A stretch of DNA of 64,000 bases, taken from Hexactinellida sp. DTS-2022 (lineage: Eukaryota; Porifera; Hexactinellida). Within the stretch, counting starts at the first letter, position 1. Every line of letters starts with the position of its first letter. Shown here piece by piece: positions 40,340 through 55,173 of the stretch. Below the pieces are notes generated by a model. It did no database searches. It saw only the letters and a list, made by a program, of their open reading frames with translations, and was not told the origin of the DNA. Both the position numbers and the translations under genes were made by a program. The DNA lies in NCBI GenBank assembly GCA_028753945.1, contig JAPNXP010000005.1:3844001-3908000 (forward strand), in the 5' to 3' direction.

Positions 40340-43128
40340 AATGTGAGAACTTCTTCAGTTTTCGCTTTTCTATTCCTTTAGATGCAACAGCGGGGTTATA
40401 ATTTTTAACCTTGTTAGCTTTAGCATAGTCAAAATAGAGACACCACAAGAAATGCAACTCGATTTAGCAATCGCATCAGTCTCTTCTAAGAATATCAAGG
40501 TTACTTCCACAATAATTTTTCTGGATGATCCTTGCATCAATATCGCCAACAAGTTTTCTTTGCTTTCAATTGCAATTAACGTCTTCCATAAAGTTACTAT
40601 AGATTCGAGGATAAACTCAGATGGATACTTTAGGCCACCACGGTCAGTTAATTGCAAAAGCCTGAACTCGGGTTGTGAATCTTCATCAAAGATAAAGTAT
40701 TTGTCAATGGTCAAAAGATCAATGCAAACATGACATGGCTGAGTTCTCTAAATATATTTATGTACTGCATAACCAGCAATAAAAGCTAATGGCTGAAGAG
40801 TCTGTAAACTACATTCAATGGAAGTTAGATCATCAATTTCATCTCAGACTAGTTGGACATCGATTTCATCGCCATTATTCGTATCAAGGGATGAGTATGA
40901 ATCAATAAATGTCTGAATTGAACATAAGCCACAATCTTGTTGTGAAGCAAAAATCTTTAATATGTTGGAATACTTGAGGCGGCGTTCAGTTTCAAGGATT
41001 TGAAGATACGAGATATGATAGTTTGAACCTGACATCATACAATATAGGCCAAAGTGATGTTCCAATGGATCTGTCTGTAAAAAGGATGTAAAAGATAGTT
41101 AAATCCACAAAATTTAGTTAAATGATCAGTTATCTGAGGCAATACAGTACAAGCATGTTTAAAACTGGTAAAAGTTTGTTTACTTAACTCTCCTACATTT
41201 CCTGGCAAGGCCAGCCAAGTCTCTAACCAAATAACAACACAAGCTAAGAATGAAAATCGTTCGTCCTGGTATGTTAGAGGTCTTGAGATATCATCATTCA
41301 AACGTTTACGTTAAGTGGGGTATTTATGTTGAAAAGTTTCCAAATTTGAAGAAGCATTTCAACAAAGTCGTGTGTATTGTTTCGGTCTTCTTGGTTACGG
41401 AGTTCATTCTGTAACTTCAGAGCTGTAACAGTTAATTCGTTGAATACTTTCAAAACAAGTTTCATATTTTGTCGCTCAATAGCAGAAGGATAACAAGCTT
41501 TGATAGTCAAGCTAGGAGCTAACTTAGCTAAGGTTTCTTTCTCTAAATTATAGAGGAGACGCACATCACTAAAAGATGCAGAGTAAACTTGAACAGAAAA
41601 GTTGGGAAAGTGAAAGGTTTTCCGAATATCTTTCTGATTCAACCAGTTGTTTCGAATACTTTTAAAAATGTGCACAAAGTCAAAAGTAACATAGAGTTTT
41701 CTTTTATTATCAGAAGGGTGTGGTACACTAGTCTCTAACTGTTTAGTTGGAGAAAATAACTTGAATAAGTTCACGTTTAAAGGGTAATTGTCGGTAGAAA
41801 TAATCTGTACTTTCAAACCGCAAGATTCGATATCCAAAATACAACACTTAATTATAGGAAAAGGTATTCAGCAGATATAGATGCGAAGGTATCAAACGAG
41901 AAATACAGGACCATTTTTGGTGTAAACTAGAAACCATGATAGCAAATACAGTTTTTGTGGGGTTTTCAGGGGATAAGTTAGGACCAAATATTTTTTCACC
42001 CTAATATGAGATATAGACTTAACGTGGATCTCATCCATCTGAATAATTACATTCTTCTCTTGAGAACTTAAAGAAGAAGTTACCTGGCTAAGGTAAGTAC
42101 AAGAGTCGTTTTTCCAACCCAAAAGAAGAGTACAACATTTCTAGTGTGTGAACATGTGGAAAAGAAATGCATTCTGAACTTTGGAGAAATTTGTAACTAG
42201 AAGGAGAAACCAGATGCGTTTTTATGGCCAGAATTTGTGTAATAACATTATAATTCCTCTCTTCTTGTAAATACCCACATTCTCTATTTGGCCAAAAATA
42301 AATTGTAATCTTGGCAAATCGGAGCAATTGGATTCTGTTTCATCACTATCTAATAGATTACATATGGCCTCCTCAATATGTTCTTTTGCTTTAGAGATAT
42401 GGTGAGGATGTTTCTTCAGAGGAGAAGAGCTAAGTTTCAGAGTAATCTCTGTAAACATCTTTCAATTTGTCGAATAACAGTGATAGAGATAAGAGAGAGA
42501 GAAATGGATTCCCCATATATATATCCGTTCACAGATAAAAAATAATTTATTTCAAGAGAAACATCTGCACAAATATCATTATTTTCCATCTTAGGCAAAA
42601 AATCTCACACAATTATCTGTTTGAATCCAAACTAACCAGTCAGTTGGGATTGTTATCAAAGCTAACTTATCTCGTATTTCTTGTATACAAGTAATACAAC
42701 CAACACGAAACTTCTCCATTTCTGTATTCTCTGATCTCAAGCTGAGATTAGTTGCTTGGTTCAATAAATCTTCCTCTTGGGAGTAGTAAGAGAACCGAGT
42801 TCGTATGATTCTAATTGAAGGGGTAGAGGAATAATAAGACGGACAACCAGGAAGGAAGAGCGGACAGCGCCAGGATTTAATGTGGGTCTTCCTCGCGGGA
42901 CCTCATAGGATGTGCCATCTCCTCTGTGTACCGTGTGAAAATATTGAATATCTTCCTTCGGAAAATGCATAGCACACACATACACCATTTGAGGTCAGAA
43001 ATATCCTCACGATGGAGCACGTATCCAGGCATGTCGTAACTCAGGTGGACCATCTGCAAGTTTAAAAACTGGGACGCGTCTTCTGGGGTATAATTACCCC
43101 TACAACCAGGGGCAGAACAGTTCGGCAT
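40340..43128 (-). pseudogene. P-element (THAP) transposase, decayed copy 1
   Basis: On the minus strand, pieces follow in the right order across frames. A THAP zinc finger runs from 43128 (MPNCSAPGCRGNY), with frameshifts and in-frame stops, to AMHFPKEDIQYFH and PRGRPTLNPGAV near 42880. The helical region and 'VIIQMDEIHVKS' (~42050) follow. The RNase H-like core carries 'STDNYPLNVNLFKLF' and 'TFDFVHIFKSIRNNWLNQKD' (41800-41640). The C-terminal part reads LEHHFGLY-type (EHHFGLYCMMSGSNYHISYL, ~41060) and DRGGLKYPSEF (~40640). P/THAP9-type transposases cut and paste DNA with 8-bp duplications. At least four frame breaks make this copy dead. The non-coding tail 'tataaggcctaccatcaaat' (40083) recurs at the other P copy. 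Confidence 0.8.
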
Positions 43129-46631: not shown

Positions 46632-46896
46632 TAGGCTATGTTTAATGGTATTTTTTTTAACTTTCGCTTTTCAGTATTCTTGAAAATCACCATGAATTGT
46701 AATTTTTAACCTTATTCGCTAAGAAACAATTTCCAGCTACGAATACAACCTTCTGAAGGACATGGGAACCATTCACACTTCTCTCTCCATAATTGACAAC
46801 TAATAATACATTCATAGATAAGTCAACAATAATTTTTCTACAATGACCTTTCACAAATATCTCCATTAGTTCGCTATCATTTTCTATGCAAATAAA
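46632..46896 (-). pseudogene. P-element transposase C-terminal piece, copy 2 (separated by insertion)
   Basis: Minus-strand reading IFICIENDSELMEIFVKGHC followed by RKIIVDLSMNVLLVV aligns with the C-terminus of copy 1 (LIAIESKENLLAILMQGSS, then RKIIVEV). It ends in KNYNSW, stop, near 46692. The piece is joined at GATC (46897-46900) to the Ginger-like element; its other half begins at 54110. The non-coding tail to 46580 matches 40083-40130. Confidence 0.75.
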
Positions 46897-46900
46897 GATC

Positions 46901-47028
46901 TGTTTCGTAAAAATATGTCCAGTCGTAAAAATATGTCCAAGTATAAATATGGACAGTATTTTACAAAACCATGGATATGCTGTAAAAATATGTCCAGTTG
47001 TAAAAATATGTCCAATCTTTAAGTATAC
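46901..47028 (+). repeat. Left terminal inverted repeat of the Ginger-like element
   Basis: Begins TGTTTCGTAAAAATATGTCC and ends ccaatctttaagtatac. The copy at 53982-54109 differs by one base in the comparable stretch I aligned (aatctttaa versus aatttttaa). Four direct or inverted 'aaaatatgtcca' motifs inside are candidate transposase-binding sites (inference). Confidence 0.85.
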
Positions 47029-48772
47029 AATTATAGACGTGGAGAAATTAATTCTGGAGTCAAGATCTTTTACTTTAGCAATTAATACACCAAGCAATAG
47101 GCATAATACACTCCCTGGCCAAATGTATTTGAACAAAATGTAGACACAATAATCTTCTAACAGAGTATTAATTAAAGGCCATTTTACAGAATAAAATGAC
47201 TATAAATATTATAGTGCTGTATTTATGAATTTCTATATCATCATAATTTAGGTCATTTTCAGCCAATATCCATTGAGTGGCATAGTGTCCCTACCACTTG
47301 TGGCACAAGTGACACAAATGGGTATGTCTCTGTATCTCAGTATAAAATTATCCTTTTTCATAAATTTATTAAATTAATCCTAACAAACCAACGTGTGTAT
47401 TATCACATATTGGAAGTCCCGTTCAGAGTGTACTTCCACTGAGAAATTACGAAATGTCATGAATGTATGTCAATGTATGTTAAAAGGTACTCCCTAACAT
47501 TTGGCCACCTAGTATACTATCGACCAACATTACTATGTAACCTGCAGAAAAGGGGTTTCCAAATATAACTAGGTTCCCAAGCTCCCCCCACTCCTAGTAG
47601 ATAACACGCAGGGGTTTATATAAAACCCTGGTTACACTATATTAGAAGATATATAACATGATTATAAAGCTAAACAGCATTAGGGTGTAATTTTTATTAC
47701 ATGTAATTCAGTTTAAAGTACGTATATCTCACTGGATTCTGTTCTACCAAAATATAGTAATATATATAATTGTTCCTATTTATTCTTTACATACTAATAT
47801 ATAACATAGAATATTTATTTTCTGGCTCTTCCTTAAGCGAAGGTTCTTCTGAGATTTGGTCAGTAAGAAATCTGTGTCCAATCCGTCATATAAAAACCAC
47901 CCCATTGTAGTTTGGATATTCATTGTGAAATGAAGTGTGTTGGAATTGTAAATTGAGAAATATAGAAGTTGATACCTACATTAAAGTGTGTGTTATGCAG
48001 GGCCGTAGCAATCAGAATTAATTAAATTGGTCAGGTTTGAATCGTACTTAGCACCAACCTGACTATCTCCTGCTATTGGCATGTTATGTCGTTTTTGTTT
48101 ACAAATTGCGTGTTAATTCCATAAAATCGATATTCAAACATATAGATTATTGATTTTTACAAAAATCAAAATTTAATTACAATTTTTATATTATAATATC
48201 TAGACCTTAACAAAAATAGGTAATATATATATATATATATTGCTTAAACTCTACACATTATATCAAAAACTAAAAAAATTATCATTGTGTATCAAAGCTT
48301 CAAAGGTAACTTACTTTAAAGTCCCATTACTTGACGGAATACACAAGTATTCAGAAAGCCAGCTTGCTTTTAATATTCTATAAATGAATACATAAAATTA
48401 CAGGAAATGCCTTACTTTACTATTTAAGTAGAAATGGCCTTACATTCCTGTTTTGCCAATTTCTATAAACATCATAGTAGGAATTGCTTCAAAATGAGAT
48501 TTTGCTAAATCTGGGACACAATTTCCTCCACATATTTGACTAAAAGATATAAATCACATAATCAATAACTAGAAAAAGACGAGATAATAATGGAGACTCC
48601 TTTATTAGTGTAAAACAATTAGTACTATATAAGGTAAAGTTATAGACTTACAGTATGCATTTCTGTATGTAGATCTTATTCTCAATACTCGTGGCTATGT
48701 CTTTCTTAGGATGGCTACAAAATGATTATTAATATGTATACTTATTTAAGTATGATACTATATAAATCTAGC
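47029..48772. other. Non-coding 3' region of the Ginger-like element
   Basis: 1.7 kb between the left repeat and the stop codon. No frame with domain similarity on either strand. Contains 'gcagggccgtagcaatcag' (47998), the start of a dispersed repeat family also seen at 56237. A regulatory or 3' UTR role is possible. Confidence 0.4.
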
Positions 48773-51700
48773 CTAATTAAAATTAGTACGTATTTGAGAA
48801 TATCTCTTCGCTAACCTTAGCAATCCGATGTCCTTTGCGCGAATAAAATGTTGATGATATTTAGTGCAAGTGTAATCAATCTTAAATGAATCAGCAGAGA
48901 ATCCCATTTTTCTAAGAACACGAACCAATTTGTGTTCACCACCAAAGAGGTCAAGATAAGGAGAATGTTTAAAACCCATATATTTGGCCAATATAAGTTT
49001 AGCTGAGACAAATTCCTAAAGTACGACAACATGATGCTAAACATAGTTGAATACCCAAATACTTTAAGTAAGGGTTAAACATCTCACCTTTGCGTGTAAA
49101 TGTATTCTGATTTTTTGCAAACAAGTATCTTGATAAAAGTATTCTGAAATAGTGATTGCTTTATCTACATCGCTAGTACAAACACTTAAGCTGGTCAGAA
49201 AATTGTCAATTGGGCAGGTATTAGTTAGATATACTTCTTTGTTTTTTCCTCCCCATGATAAACATCGACTTAAATATTCTAAATAGATGGTATATACATA
49301 TTAATAGGAGAATAATTCAAATCTAGATAGAAAATACCTTCTATAATGGGTTCTTGCGTATATATACCAGAAGTACTTATAGCCCCTGTGTATTTAAACT
49401 CTGTAGTGAAGAGCAGATCAAGCTAGGTAAATACATAAATGGGTTTAATATATATTATACATGTTGATTAGGACAGGCACTTAACTACTTAAATTTAAGT
49501 TTGAGCACTGGATAGATTCATCTGAAAACCGTTACAAACTAACCGTTGGTAATGCCACTTGATATGCATAATGAGAAGGAGCTTTAGGATCTACATTTGC
49601 AGTATCCATTGCTTCTCTACAAATATCCACGACAAGCTGGAATATTTTTTCAGACTAAACAAAGAGATGGAGGGAATTAAGATCAAGGTTCAACAATTAT
49701 AAATAGTTAGAAAATTAACCTCAGCACTTTCCTCCCCTCCACGTAAGAGTAAGCTACAACATGGTGGAATAGATTCATAACGTTTTGGGTTTGAAAAATA
49801 TCGTTTCTCTAGTTCGATTTGTAAATTGTTTAGGGGTTTCTTTTCTCTTATTGATTTCACGAGTTGCTCCTATAATAAGGGAAGTCAATTATTTGTAAAT
49901 TTCATGTATACACTTATTCTTACTCTGAGTGAGATTATTTTTTCAGTAATTTGAGTGATTGGTATCATCAAAGGACTTTCAGCCTTCAAATCTTCATTGT
50001 GAATTTCCTTTATATCTAATAAAATATAGTAGGGTTTTGGTCACAAATAGTAGCTTGACAAACAAGGGGAAGTAGAAGGTGCAGATAGATGGGCATTATG
50101 TCGTTCTGTACGAGGTACAATTAAGCATTCTGGGTGCTAAATCCCCACAGTCCAAATAGAATAAAATAACTTTACTAACCTAACAAATCTATTATTCCAT
50201 CCTCTTTTGAATCATTCTATAAGAAAATTGGAAATTTTATGAATACTAGTTTATAATATATAAATCTAGTAATGTAGCTTGATTAGATAAACGTAACATG
50301 TATTTACCTCAAACACTGCATTGATTAAGTCGTAATTACTACAGTCACTATCAGCATCACTATCAACATAGTCCTTAAATTGAGAAATTTCTTTCAATGA
50401 ATTTACCAAGGAATCTTGGTTTACATGTACCGACGGATTTTGATCAGGAAATCCTGCCTTTAAATAGGTTTGAATCATATCCATACTAGTATCATCAATC
50501 TAAATTTACAATCTATATTATAAATCTCGATTGTTGTTTGTTTGTGTGTGTGTGTGTGTGTTTGTCCGGATTGTATTAAAGTGATGAGGGAATAGAAACC
50601 GCATTTATATATGAGATATAAACTAAGTTACAATTGTTATAATAGATAAACAAACGTTATAATAGGTAAACAAGTATGCTGATAACGATTTTCGAATTTA
50701 TAAATTCAGAATATTAATAATTGTTGTTGTTGTTTACCTAAAATAGGTAAACAATTTAATGAAAATTCAAAATCGACGTAGAAGTTAGCTTCTGAGGGGT
50801 ATTATTGGTAAACAAGTTAAAACTATGGAAAATGGTAGAAAGGGTTGTATATAACGTCCCTTTCTACCATTTCCATGGCAGAAAAGGGTGAGGAGTAAGG
50901 CCGCACAGCGGCCGTTAACTTGAGGTGCGTAGCACCGATCCGTCGCAAAGCGACCGAGACCGAAGGACTCGTAATTAACAAAACTACAGTGTAACCTCTA
51001 TAAACTGGAAATTTTGGACAATTCACATTTAGCCCATCCCATGCTTCCTTAGTAATTGAAGTTATGCTGAGGAGCATGCAATTGATCGAATACAATCTTT
51101 AGATCGAAAATCTAAAGTTTGTCATTGATCAAAAATATGAGGAATATATTATTCATATTCCAAACTGTGTTGCGATGATCAACAAAATTATTTTAAAATC
51201 ACCTTATCTATGAATATTTTTGTAGTAGATTCTTTTCGCTTTTTAAATGGTCTAACAGATTCAATTTGAAAGTTCCTCGTCTTACTACCAATTGCAACCT
51301 TGACGATAGATCCATGAACATCTTCCACTTTATATGGACCTGACCATTTTGATTGATATTTGCTTCCCGGTAAGTGCTTACGCTTTGCTTGATTGATGAC
51401 CAAAACGAATTTTCCTGGTTGTATCTGCTCCCTAATACAAATAAACAGATTGTGAAATTTTTAGCCAATTCATGAAAATCAGAATCATTACCTGGGAGCT
51501 TTCTTTAACTTCTTGTCATAAATCGTCTTCATTGACTTTTGAGCAGATCGAATGTTATTTTCTGCCACTTGATGGATTTTCTGCATTATCTTTTTGGAGG
51601 CCTCAATGAATTTATTAACATCTTCATCCCACTTTTCATTAGGAGCAGATATAATGTCATCAATTCCATCTGATTCCCCCAAAGCTTCTGCTTCTATGGG

Positions 51701-53927
51701 TAAACGAGCCTTTCTTCCATACATCAACTCGTGAGCAGAGTATCCTGTTGCTTCACGTATTCTATTATTAATTGAAAATGTAGCCGCTTCAAGGAAATCT
51801 CCCCAGTGATCCAAATGTCCCATCAAGATTTTCTTTAAGGTACTAATGGTGATAGAGAATTAAAGGCGAATTTAATAATAATTGCACATTATCACAATAT
51901 CATGCCCCTGCAGTCTAATTTGAATTGGTCAGATTGAAAGCGTATTAATAGTACAACCTGACTAAATATGATCAAATTGCATAATACATTTTGTATAAAC
52001 TGTTGGTCTGGTTTCAACCTGACTAACCTGATTGTATCATAAGCCGTGGGTCGCAGTAGATAGTCCAGATAGACAATTTAATATGGCGGACAATGTATGA
52101 AGTAACAGATAGTGTTCAATCTTAATCATTAATTCTAAATTCCATATTTTGATCACTTACTGTTGAATTGATTTGTTGGTAGATTCGTCAAGACCGTTTG
52201 TTCGTGGATGGTAGGGAGCAGCAAAACATAATTGGGTGTTAGAATGCTTTTGTAACTCTTTGTTTATCTAAGATAGAATTATAATCTTTGTTAAACCAAG
52301 AGATGTATTAATTATATTAAGTAAGGGATTATTTGAATCAAATAGTAGGTACAGGGATAATATTTTAATAGAATGCCAATATTCAAAATATATTTAATCA
52401 ACATTAAATTTAATAATATAAAATCCTAAGAAATTTAAAAGAGGCTTTAAATTATTACAAAAATTTAATAAGTCTTTCATACTAATTAAGCTAGAAATCG
52501 TTAATCTCAGAGGTGATACAAGATTGAAACAAAACTTCCAACTTATCAATAGTTCTTATGGCACGTAACACTATTACAAATTGTTAATGTCCTAATTGTA
52601 AAGAATTCAAACAAGAATCGGCTTTACCCTTCGTTGCACAGGAAACTGAAACTGAAACTGAAAGTTAATTCACTTTCAATTTCTTTAAATGGGATTTTCA
52701 AATTATACATTTTACCCCAAGTGTGTTTTAATAATTAATTAAAATAAGTACGTGTATTAACTATTACAAATAGAAAGTCTAGTATTTAATTAAGTTACTC
52801 ATTTGAATAATAGAATTGTTATCATCATTTCAACTGGAAAATGTTCAAGTGTTTTCATTGTGTTTGATGAAACACGTCTTCACTTTAGAAACAACTTACA
52901 TAATAATAATAACAGTCATTATCAGGTAGTACAATGTAAATAAGTTATATAGTGTAACTGTGTAAGTTTAATGTAGTGTAATTACAGTATGGAGATGGCA
53001 TATTTACGTAAAACCGTTAATAAAACTTGGAATTGGATTAAAAGCACAATTATTGCGTGTGTTTGTGAGTTTGTCCAGAATTAATAGGAAAGACCATATG
53101 AACTAGAAATCAGAAAATTTGCATGCAGGGGATAATTTTTCACGTTGGCAACGATCTATTGTTGTTCTAAACGAAATAACGGGATTAATTTATTAACACT
53201 TTTTATAATACCTGTCTTGATAAACAAATAATAAAATGATTACTTACTTTGCTTGTAAAACAAGTTCCGTTATCTGTAATTATTCTCACTGGAGCGCCCA
53301 AGTGGCAGTATATAGAAAATATAGCTGAAGCAACTTCTGGAGCTTCTTTAGATTTAAGTGGTCGCGTTGCAACATACTTTGTAAAGTAATCTGTCATGGA
53401 AAGAAAATATTGGTATCCATTTTGGGTTATCACTAAAGGGCCCACCAGATCCATTCCACACATATACCATGGTTTTGCTGTAACTTCTATTACTTTTAAC
53501 GGACGTGTTGATTTGAGATTGGAGAATGAGTTGGCCTGGCAACTAATACAAGACTCAACCTAGAATAATGAAATAAAATTCAAGTAATACACCATATAAG
53601 AATCTGTAATAAAGAGAGATTCCTCACATAATTTTTGACCTCTTGGTACATTCCATGCCAGAAGTATCTTTGTTTTATTAGACCATATGTACCATGTATC
53701 CCTTTATGTCCTCCTATATCGTCATGACATTCCTTAAGGATATTAGCAACCTGCTCACGTTTGATTACTAAAAGGCAGTTATCATCAACTAATTTATATA
53801 ATCTATCGTTCTTTAATATCATCTCAGCTGCATATCTCCGAATTTTCTTTCTCAGAGATGTATTAGTTGATTGATAAGTTTTAGAAAAGAGGTAGAGACA
53901 TACATGATTGTAAAGTTGATGTTCCAT
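48773..53927 (-). CDS. Ginger-like integrase/transposase, 13 exons, 799 aa
   Basis: Exons (minus strand): 53628-53927, 53248-53559, 52161-52267, 51492-51842, 51203-51431, 50308-50499, 50180-50216, 49924-50015, 49720-49869, 49544-49654, 49338-49422, 49088-49278, 48773-49015. Every intron is GT...AG, phases match, and the sum is exactly 2,400 nt including the stop. Start chosen at ATG 53927 (MEHQLYNHV). HHCC zinc finger H68, H74, C104, C107; integrase core D137 (CGMDLVGPL), D196 (IITDNGT), E232 (NGLDEST), spacing D-58-D-35-E; GPY/F motif at 388-390 (KWSGPYKVED). Residues 434-799 are an unidentified region including YLTNTCPIDNFLTSLS (Cys677). It would catalyse transposition of this element. Odd: the C-terminal region, and a 703-nt fifth intron holding a Helitron-like repeat. 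A domesticated gene is less likely given intact terminal repeats. Confidence 0.8.
50512..50972 (+). mobile_element. Helitron/Helentron-like element inside intron 5 of the Ginger-like gene
   Basis: Starts TCTATATTATAAATCTCG at 50512, only 12 bp from the start of exon 6 (50499), has about one core unit, the hairpin block (gccgcacagcggccgttaac), and ends cgagaccgaaggactcgt at 50972. It lies antisense to the gene. The splice acceptor (TTTAG, 50500-50504) remains intact. Confidence 0.65.
51880..52045. repeat. Dispersed 'ggtcagg / cctgacc' repeat in intron 3
   Basis: Contains 'tttgaattggtcagattgaa', 'caacctgactaa' and 'ataagccgtggg', the same vocabulary as 47998-48070 and 56237-56510. Probably a small MITE family with ggccgtagc ends. 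Confidence 0.45.
52720..53060. mobile_element. Diverged MULE-derived MITE in intron 2 of the Ginger-like gene
   Basis: Follows the order of the MULE right arm (45840-46110): 'tattacaaatagaaa', 'gaataatag', 'cttcactt', 'aacagtcattatc', 'gtaattacagtatggagatg', 'taataaaacttgg'. It is more diverged than the copies at 57-59 kb and lacks clean ends. Confidence 0.5.
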
Positions 53928-53981
53928 AATAATAGATTGACAAAATAAATATAGAATTTGAGTAAACAAATTCATGTATTA

Positions 53982-54109
53982 GTATACTTAAAAATTGGAC
54001 ATATTTTTACAACTGGACATATTTTTACAGCATATCCATGGTTTTGTAAAATACTGTCCATATTTATACTTGGACATATTTTTACGACTGGACATATTTT
54101 TACGAAACA
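53982..54109 (-). repeat. Right terminal inverted repeat of the Ginger-like element
   Basis: Inverse of 46901-47028. The GATC duplication follows at 54110-54113, and P-element coding resumes directly after it. Confidence 0.85.
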
Positions 54110-54255
54110 GATCTTCCAAATAGTGACAATAGATTCTAGGACTACCTCCGATGGATATTTCAAACCTCCGCGATCAGAGAGTTCTAATAGTTTGAACTTA
54201 GATATAGTATCAGATTCATCGACGAGTAAATCTCTTTCAATAGTCAAAGAAACCC

Positions 54256-55173
54256 TGTGTCATAGTAAATCCTGTTCCCCCATCTTTTTGTTCCCCCGAA
54301 CAGGATTTCTTAGGAAATACTGTTCCCCCGAACAATATTTCCTAGGAAATCCTGTTCCCCACACCATATTTCCTAGGGGATAATGTACCCCCCGAGTGTT
54401 TCCCCCTGGTTAATTATGTTCCCCCGAACAATATTCACTAGTAAATTTTGTTCCCCCGAACAGTATTGACTAGTAAAATATTGTTCCCCCGAACAGTATT
54501 GACTAGTAAATATTGTTCCCCCGAACAGTATTCGCTTGTAAATATTGTTCCCCCGAACAGTGCAGATTCACTATAAAATTATCTTCCCCTCAATACAAAA
54601 TGGAACTAAGGTTACTAGAATATGTAGAAAAGTTTTGAATTACCTATTATTACATACTTCTCCCTCTTTGAACACCCTGCTGTATACTTTCCTCCCGGAA
54701 GATATAGGCGAATATGGAGGTATTTGAAAAGTACACAACACATGTACCTAAGGCACATGTGTTGTCTACTTTTCAATATATGGAATATGGTAATACTGTT
54801 TAGTTTCTATAATTGTTTAATTAATTTATGGATAACTACTAATTGAATTTTCTCGAATTAACTTTTGATTGTGTCATATCAATATAACATACTGTACGGA
54901 TGTTAATATTACTACTGACTAAAAGGGGAAACAGTATTCCCTAGTGATTACTGTTCGGGGGAACAATATTTACTAGCGAATACTGTTCAGGGGAACAATA
55001 TTTTCTAGTGAATACTGTTCGGGGGAACAATATTTTATAGTGAATACTGTTCGGGGGAACAATATTTTCTATTAGGCAGAGGGGAACAAGATTCCCTAGA
55101 GGGGAACAATATTTCCTAGGAAATATTGTTCGGGGGAACAATTTTCACGGGGGAACAGGATCTCCTCTGACAT
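54256..55173. mobile_element. 'GTTCCCCCGAACA' repeat element, copy 2
   Basis: Ends TGTGTCATAGTAAATCCTG and (inverted) ATGTCAGAGGAGATCCTG, matching the two ends of the 23303-24209 copy. Tandem units of ~35 bp with TGTTCCCCCGAACA lie in both arms. It separates two adjoining parts of P copy 2 (QPCRIC... and LTIERD...). Frames through it (PRT-type repeats) are not genes. Confidence 0.65.

Follow-up and report, generated by a model that had tools for sequence, protein, structure and literature searches.

A Ginger-like transposon of a hexactinellid sponge with a GNNC target, an intron-rich integrase gene and a USP-like C-terminal domain

A 7,209-bp element lies at positions 46901–54109 of a 64,000-nucleotide stretch of DNA (hereafter the window; C14:3844001-3908000) from the genome of the sponge Hexactinellida sp. 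DTS-2022. It is very probably a Ginger-like cut-and-paste transposon, with a single minus-strand gene predicted from the sequence to contain 17 exons and to encode a 924-amino-acid protein combining an H2C2 zinc finger, a DDE catalytic core, a GPY-type module and a USP-like domain. Among DNA transposons, Ginger elements form the counterpart to the integrases of gypsy elements and retroviruses. An earlier note on this DNA, made from the window's letters, had proposed a Ginger-like element with a gypsy-type integrase; the ends, target duplication, genomic relatives and empty sites described below support this placement, though the element is better kept apart from Ginger1 proper. A GNNC target, 16 introns and a USP-like tail appear to be new features for the Ginger kind.

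Ends, target sites and genomic relatives

The termini of the element are TGT...ACA, and GATC flanks it on both sides (46897–46900 and 54110–54113) as a 4-bp target site duplication. The left terminal inverted repeat (46901–47033, plus strand) begins TGTTTCG, and the right one (53977–54109, minus strand) differs from it at 3 positions over 133 nt. Counted beyond the TGT/ACA ends, the inverted arms extend to 139 nt (46895–47033 and 53977–54115) with 98% identity. The TGT start, the GATC duplication and the near-identical terminal repeats reported earlier at about 128 bp are therefore confirmed, the repeats measuring 133 bp in inverted orientation. Each arm contains four exact copies of GTAAAAATATGTCC and two further copies with three mismatches.

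A genome search with the terminal repeat, proposed in the earlier note, revealed further copies: across 112 Mb in 18 contigs, 43 matches to the 139-bp arm were obtained (of 44 candidates from a first look, 40 were scored; loci in this genome carry L-numbers here). Two-ended elements range in size from 846 bp (L020) to about 10 kb (L016/L039). Both ends were read for 16 elements, comprising one batch of 14 together with L016 and the divergent L042; identical 4-bp duplications flank 15 of them, and all 15 duplications have the form GNNC. The 13 matching members of the batch show GGCC (five), GAAC and GACC (two each), and GATC, GGTC, GTAC and GGAC (one each), with GGCC in L016 and GAGC, read by eye, in L042. 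GNNC is preceded by A or followed by T on 23 of the 26 sides of those 13 elements, so that the preferred target reads A-GNNC-T. Two points weigh against this pattern: the flanks of L017 are unequal (GTAA versus GGCC), the sole mismatch among the 16 elements, and L012, L013 and L019 have flanks in common, which makes their sites partly dependent on one another.

The shared flanks have a structure of their own. One flank of L019 (C15:2200620-2202389) equals a flank of L012 and the other equals a flank of L013, while L012 and L013 (C14:3819786-3831506) are oppositely oriented copies separated by about 10 kb; to judge from the sequence, this looks like an inversion through recombination between copies. 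At C3:1307158-1317072, the flanks of the left end of L016 and the right end of L039 are inverted copies of each other over 35 bases, which places this copy at the centre of a perfect palindrome.

Empty sites spanning the junction were recovered with joined flanks for three of 14 elements (the window element, L019 and L037). A paralogous empty site for the window element lies within the window itself (40506–40715, plus strand), with 69% identity to the joined flanks; it runs unbroken across the junction and is one base shorter at the spot matching the GATC duplication. A second (L016:2944-3068) also runs through the junction, with a single GGTC where the window element has two GATC. For L037, empty sites occur at three places in L026 (89–92% identity). 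Shorter copies (L012–L015) retain both ends but, of the gene, just a vestige of exon 1, and were presumably mobilised in trans.

Further relatives were identified with the integrase core, for which 150 matches were scored of 1,028 candidates, such that the counts are lower bounds. At least 39 of the 150 stay in a single frame over 158 or more of the 190 query residues at 49–56% identity; these frames cross the positions of introns 2 and 3 of the window gene, and 32 of the 39 have no internal stop. Two intron-less relatives carry the same integrase/USP-like fusion: L038, whose two ends share 225 identical bases and which has GAAC duplications and an 886-codon open frame, and L037, with a 922-codon open frame and a GGAC duplication. 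More distantly, a 972-amino-acid frame in L042 (L042:362-3923; C1:752000-756700) combines the same USP-like domain with an integrase core that has diverged much further (rve, 8.8e-5), and lies between inverted ends with GAGC at both sides. A receptor-kinase-like frame next to L042 fits an animal host, while a Pfam wnt search gave no match, its controls being silent as well.

These relatives bear on whether an ordinary Ty3/gypsy integrase fragment, or a host gene, lies by chance between inverted repeats. The integrase is of gypsy type, and the same genome holds Ty3/gypsy elements (L043, L044) with reverse transcriptase, RNase H, protease and integrase. However, the earlier note had set long terminal repeats and reverse transcriptase against a transposon, and neither was found belonging to the element: no direct repeat of that size was detected in it, and two gypsy pol proteins of the same genome, used as queries for reverse transcriptase, matched only in their integrase part. 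The same ends and gene also recur in further copies, each with its own duplication. In a tree of 11 rows, all drawn from this genome and without reference Ginger sequences, the window element groups with L011 (99/100), four intron-less rows group together (95/97), and these six rows unite less firmly (88/93), apart from four gypsy-type rows (99/97); L042 is long-branched, and the deeper groupings are uncertain. A chance arrangement is thus highly improbable, and a Ginger-like transposon remains the preferred reading.

Gene structure, integrase and state of the window copy

The open spliced frame of 13 exons and 799 amino acids predicted earlier could be rebuilt, with GT-AG borders at all 12 introns, though it proved truncated at its 3' end: its exon 13 continues to a stop at 48773 and so runs past a donor at 48816 into an intron. 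In the revised model, exon 1 (53628–53927) encodes the protein start and most of the H2C2 zinc finger, exon 2 (53248–53559) the CxxC of the finger and the catalytic residues D137 and D196, exon 3 (52161–52267) the catalytic E232, exon 4 (51492–51842) the end of the integrase core and a linker, and exon 5 (51203–51431) the GPY-type module. Exons 6 (50308–50499), 7 (50180–50216; not located in L011 or L016), 8 (49924–50015), 9 (49720–49869), 10 (49544–49654) and 11 (49338–49422) precede exon 12 (49088–49278), which contains the protease Cys box NTCPIDNF, and exon 13 (48816–49015). Four exons absent from the first model follow: 14 (48652–48714), 15 (48444–48539; second zinc-ribbon cysteines), 16 (48315–48377) and 17 (47780–47975; His box LHFTM, Asp box YDG and stop codon). 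Exons 13–17, all on the minus strand like the rest, are linked by four phase-2 junctions, for a predicted total of 924 codons ending at 47780. The intron richness claimed for this gene thus stands, at 16 introns.

Several lines of evidence support the longer protein. The open frames of L037 and L038 extend C-terminally past the last exon of the first model, and a profile of five relatives that leaves out the window scores 145.7 bits for the 924-amino-acid protein versus 90.3 for that of 799. Searched against the six frames of the window, the relatives' profile recovers pieces of exons 12, 13 and 17 (6.6e-12, 3.3e-6 and 7.8e-7), and did not report exons 14, 15 and 16. Splice sites are conserved among related copies. 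L009 has AG at all 16 acceptors and GT at all 16 donors (14 donors printed by the program; the printed alignment shows the other two, at exons 1 and 13). The more distant L011, aligned in pieces of 43–86% identity, shows AG at 14 of its 16 acceptors, and 11 of the 16 donors have GT at a consistent distance; a simple exon placer could not position exon 7 and missed one of the two borders in each of exons 5, 6, 8, 11 and 12. Its exons 13–17 have the same lengths as in the window (200, 63, 96, 63 and 196) with AG/GT borders. L016 presents a similar splice picture, with exons 2, 13 and 17 each one base off in length, indicating a broken frame. Sequence similar to repeats elsewhere lies within introns 2 (52268–53247) and 5 (50500–51202), as expected if these are spliced out.

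The proportions of nonsynonymous (pN) and synonymous (pS) differences between the window and L011 are 0.178 and 0.657 over 603 codons (exons 2–5, 9, 10 and 13–17, with exons 1, 6–8, 11, 12 and part of 5 excluded), giving a ratio of nonsynonymous to synonymous divergence (dN/dS) of about 0.13, with dS near saturation. Across the 201 codons of exons 13–17, pN is 0.183 and pS 0.740; these exons are under purifying selection.

The integrase part matches Integrase_H2C2 (4e-19) and rve (4e-10) in Pfam, as well as PFV and Ty3 integrases in the PDB. Its catalytic triad, D137-58-D196-35-E232, is split as the earlier note had described, with both aspartates in exon 2 and the glutamate in exon 3. The GPY motif, identified by eye, reads KWSGPYKV in the window and KWLGPYRI in L037. 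When the stretch upstream of the zinc finger is aligned by eye with YPYY, L037 and L038 have YP and the window copy has YQ. A scan of viral contigs with the integrase alignment gave 36 pattern matches, none of which was confirmed.

It had also been suggested that the absence of coding damage reflects recent or current activity. All 17 exons of the window copy are indeed open, and L009 is 98.9–99.4% identical to it in three blocks of 3,680, 813 and 2,568 columns while located at its own GAAC site, indicating that the lineage moved recently. Current activity of this copy is less certain: it lacks a zinc-ribbon cysteine that is kept in all nine relatives compared (L009, L011, L016, L027, L037, L038, L040, L041 and L042), has arginine in place of the glutamine of HPQTNG found in six of seven relatives, and has as its closest sister a copy, L009, with frame-breaking indels in exons 1, 13 and 17. 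On these grounds it is a serious possibility, though not the one we favour, that the window copy itself is no longer mobile and that the recent movement of the lineage was due to other copies. Against this stand the open exons, the arms with 3 mismatches in 133 nt, the sister copy of about 99% identity, and L032, which likewise has a basic residue (lysine) at the HPQTNG position. Current activity looks likelier for the intron-less branch than for the window copy.

The C-terminal USP-like domain

The large extra C-terminal region pointed out earlier is present and was incomplete; with the four added exons, it is predicted to form a complete Cys-His-Asp cysteine-protease domain that is USP-like. 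The domain was aligned from six proteins, those of the window, L037, L038, L040, L041 and L042. An NTC-x-x-DN box and a YD box are present in all six and an HF box in five, L038 having glutamine at the histidine column. Between the boxes are cysteine clusters, with two CxxC pairs in every member other than that of the window. L040 (L040:842-2155) and L041 (L041:917-2218) contain the USP-like domain in frames of 438 and 434 codons, with the integrase not in the same frame; these may be the second frames of elements that have been split, or else remnants or domesticated genes.

Compared profile against profile, the domain matches USP at 90.6% in local mode (148 columns) and 93.9% in global mode (230 columns), on a template composed of USP8, USP15 and one typed USP consensus; because this template set is small, the domain is termed only USP-like. 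The global alignment places the Cys box, cysteine clusters, His box, Asp box and closing strand on those of USP. In neither mode does any of 60 column-shuffled decoys attain the USP score (best 23.4 versus 53.7 local and 9.6 versus 44.5 global), a reversed profile likewise falls below it, and the match holds when the window sequence is left out (92.6% and 93.9%). For the same domain, a profile of OTUD1/3/5 gives 0.15% and one of Ulp1/SENP1 gives 0.25%.

Other results count against this assignment. Pfam UCH/USP models match none of the six members at E values up to 10 (the best value, 0.0056, belongs to a zinc finger), and the C-terminal alignment, searched as a profile against the PDB, returned chance matches only (best E 0.13). 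In the window copy, one cysteine of the first CxxC pair is missing and the second cluster is spaced differently, and L038 has the glutamine noted above. Together with the fact that the USP similarity is visible only profile against profile, these substitutions leave some room, rather limited in our view, for a domain of USP descent that no longer cleaves and instead binds proteins or mediates multimerisation. The conservation of the cysteine and aspartate in all six proteins and of the histidine in five argues otherwise, as does the low pN relative to pS in exons 13–17, and an active protease is the reading carried forward here. A search of the same genome with Pfam Peptidase_C98 (USPL1) gave no match, while its controls were nearly silent, which leaves this negative without weight, and a scan of viral contigs with the protease alignment gave 18 pattern matches, none confirmed.

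Since the same module stands behind the divergent integrase of L042, which also has a GNNC duplication, the module may have been exchanged between integrase lineages or be ancestral to them. It is an evenly balanced question whether these elements form a separate group of integrase-type transposons defined by an A-GNNC-T palindromic target and a USP-type deubiquitinase, the latter a third ubiquitin/SUMO-protease class; in such a group, the module would have been exchanged or retained for the advantage of protecting the transposase against ubiquitin-dependent removal.

Elsewhere in the window, 32-bp tandem repeats around GTTCCCCCGAACA form facing arrays at 54288–54561/54925–55119 and 23322–23522/23879–24174, and may mark the termini of a further inverted-repeat element.

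Proposed mechanism and comparison with known systems

In the proposed mechanism, the integrase part would bind the repeated GTAAAAATATGTCC motifs in both ends, then pair and cut the ends. These would be joined to A-GNNC-T palindromes at strand positions staggered by 4 bp, with repair leaving the GNNC duplication. The protease part would most likely act on the transposase or on host proteins at the site, freeing them of ubiquitin or a ubiquitin-like modifier, whereby the transposase could be spared or repair eased.

The repeated fusion of such integrases with OTU, Ulp1 and USP-like classes suggests that control of ubiquitin or SUMO marks aids Ginger-like movement, and this genome has open intron-less copies suited to testing the role of the protease. 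This genome harbours one branch with 16 host-like introns beside a sister branch that has none, which makes intron gain or loss in a mobile gene testable. The GNNC target broadens the target range known to us for this enzyme type. A USP-type domain on a Ginger-like element was not found in the literature searched, which did not extend to Repbase or most subscription papers; as the search was partial, the fusion of an integrase with a ubiquitin-protease-like domain may have been described before.

Unlike a Ty3/gypsy retrotransposon, the element contains neither detectable reverse transcriptase nor long terminal repeats. The element resembles Ginger2/Tdd in its integrase-type cut-and-paste organization and inverted ends, with 4-bp duplications in most Ginger2/Tdd, but Ginger2 is described as lacking GPY/F and preferring RTATAY (Bao, Kapitonov and Jurka 2010; PMC2836005), in contrast to the GPY motif and GNNC target observed here. 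GIN1/GIN2 and Imagin are likewise multi-exon genes for Ginger1-type integrases (PMC2836005; PMC12863088); these are host genes without ends, and the DDE of Imagin is defunct, whereas the sponge element is multi-copy, has ends and retains an intact D58D35E. Helitrons with OTU and VTD domains (PMC9741609) provide a parallel for a transposon protein with its own deubiquitinase-class domain, though in another type of transposon and with other protease classes; VTD activity was assayed in that work, whereas the activity of the USP-like domain is inferred.

The closest counterpart is Ginger1, for which CCGG/CCGT targets, TGTNR ends, inverted ends of about 40–270 bp, 4-bp duplications, 0–4 introns, proteins of about 500–800 amino acids, GPY/F and YPYY motifs, and a C-terminal OTU or Ulp1 domain (none seen in one family) have been described (Bao, Kapitonov and Jurka 2010; PMC2836005). 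Like Ginger1, the sponge element combines a gypsy-type integrase with H2C2, DDE and GPY, cut-and-paste organization and introns; its 133-bp inverted ends fall within the known range, its duplication is 4 bp, and its C-terminal domain is of the ubiquitin- or SUMO-protease class. Unlike Ginger1, its target is GNNC in all 15 matching pairs, its ends begin TGTTT (as in L037 and L038; only one end of L042 fits TGTNR), its gene has 16 introns against none in the L037/L038 branch, its predicted protein reaches 924 amino acids, and its C-terminal domain scores with USP rather than with OTU or Ulp1. Because it departs from Ginger1 in its target, its terminal sequence, its number of introns and the class of its C-terminal domain, the element is best described as a Ginger-like variant.

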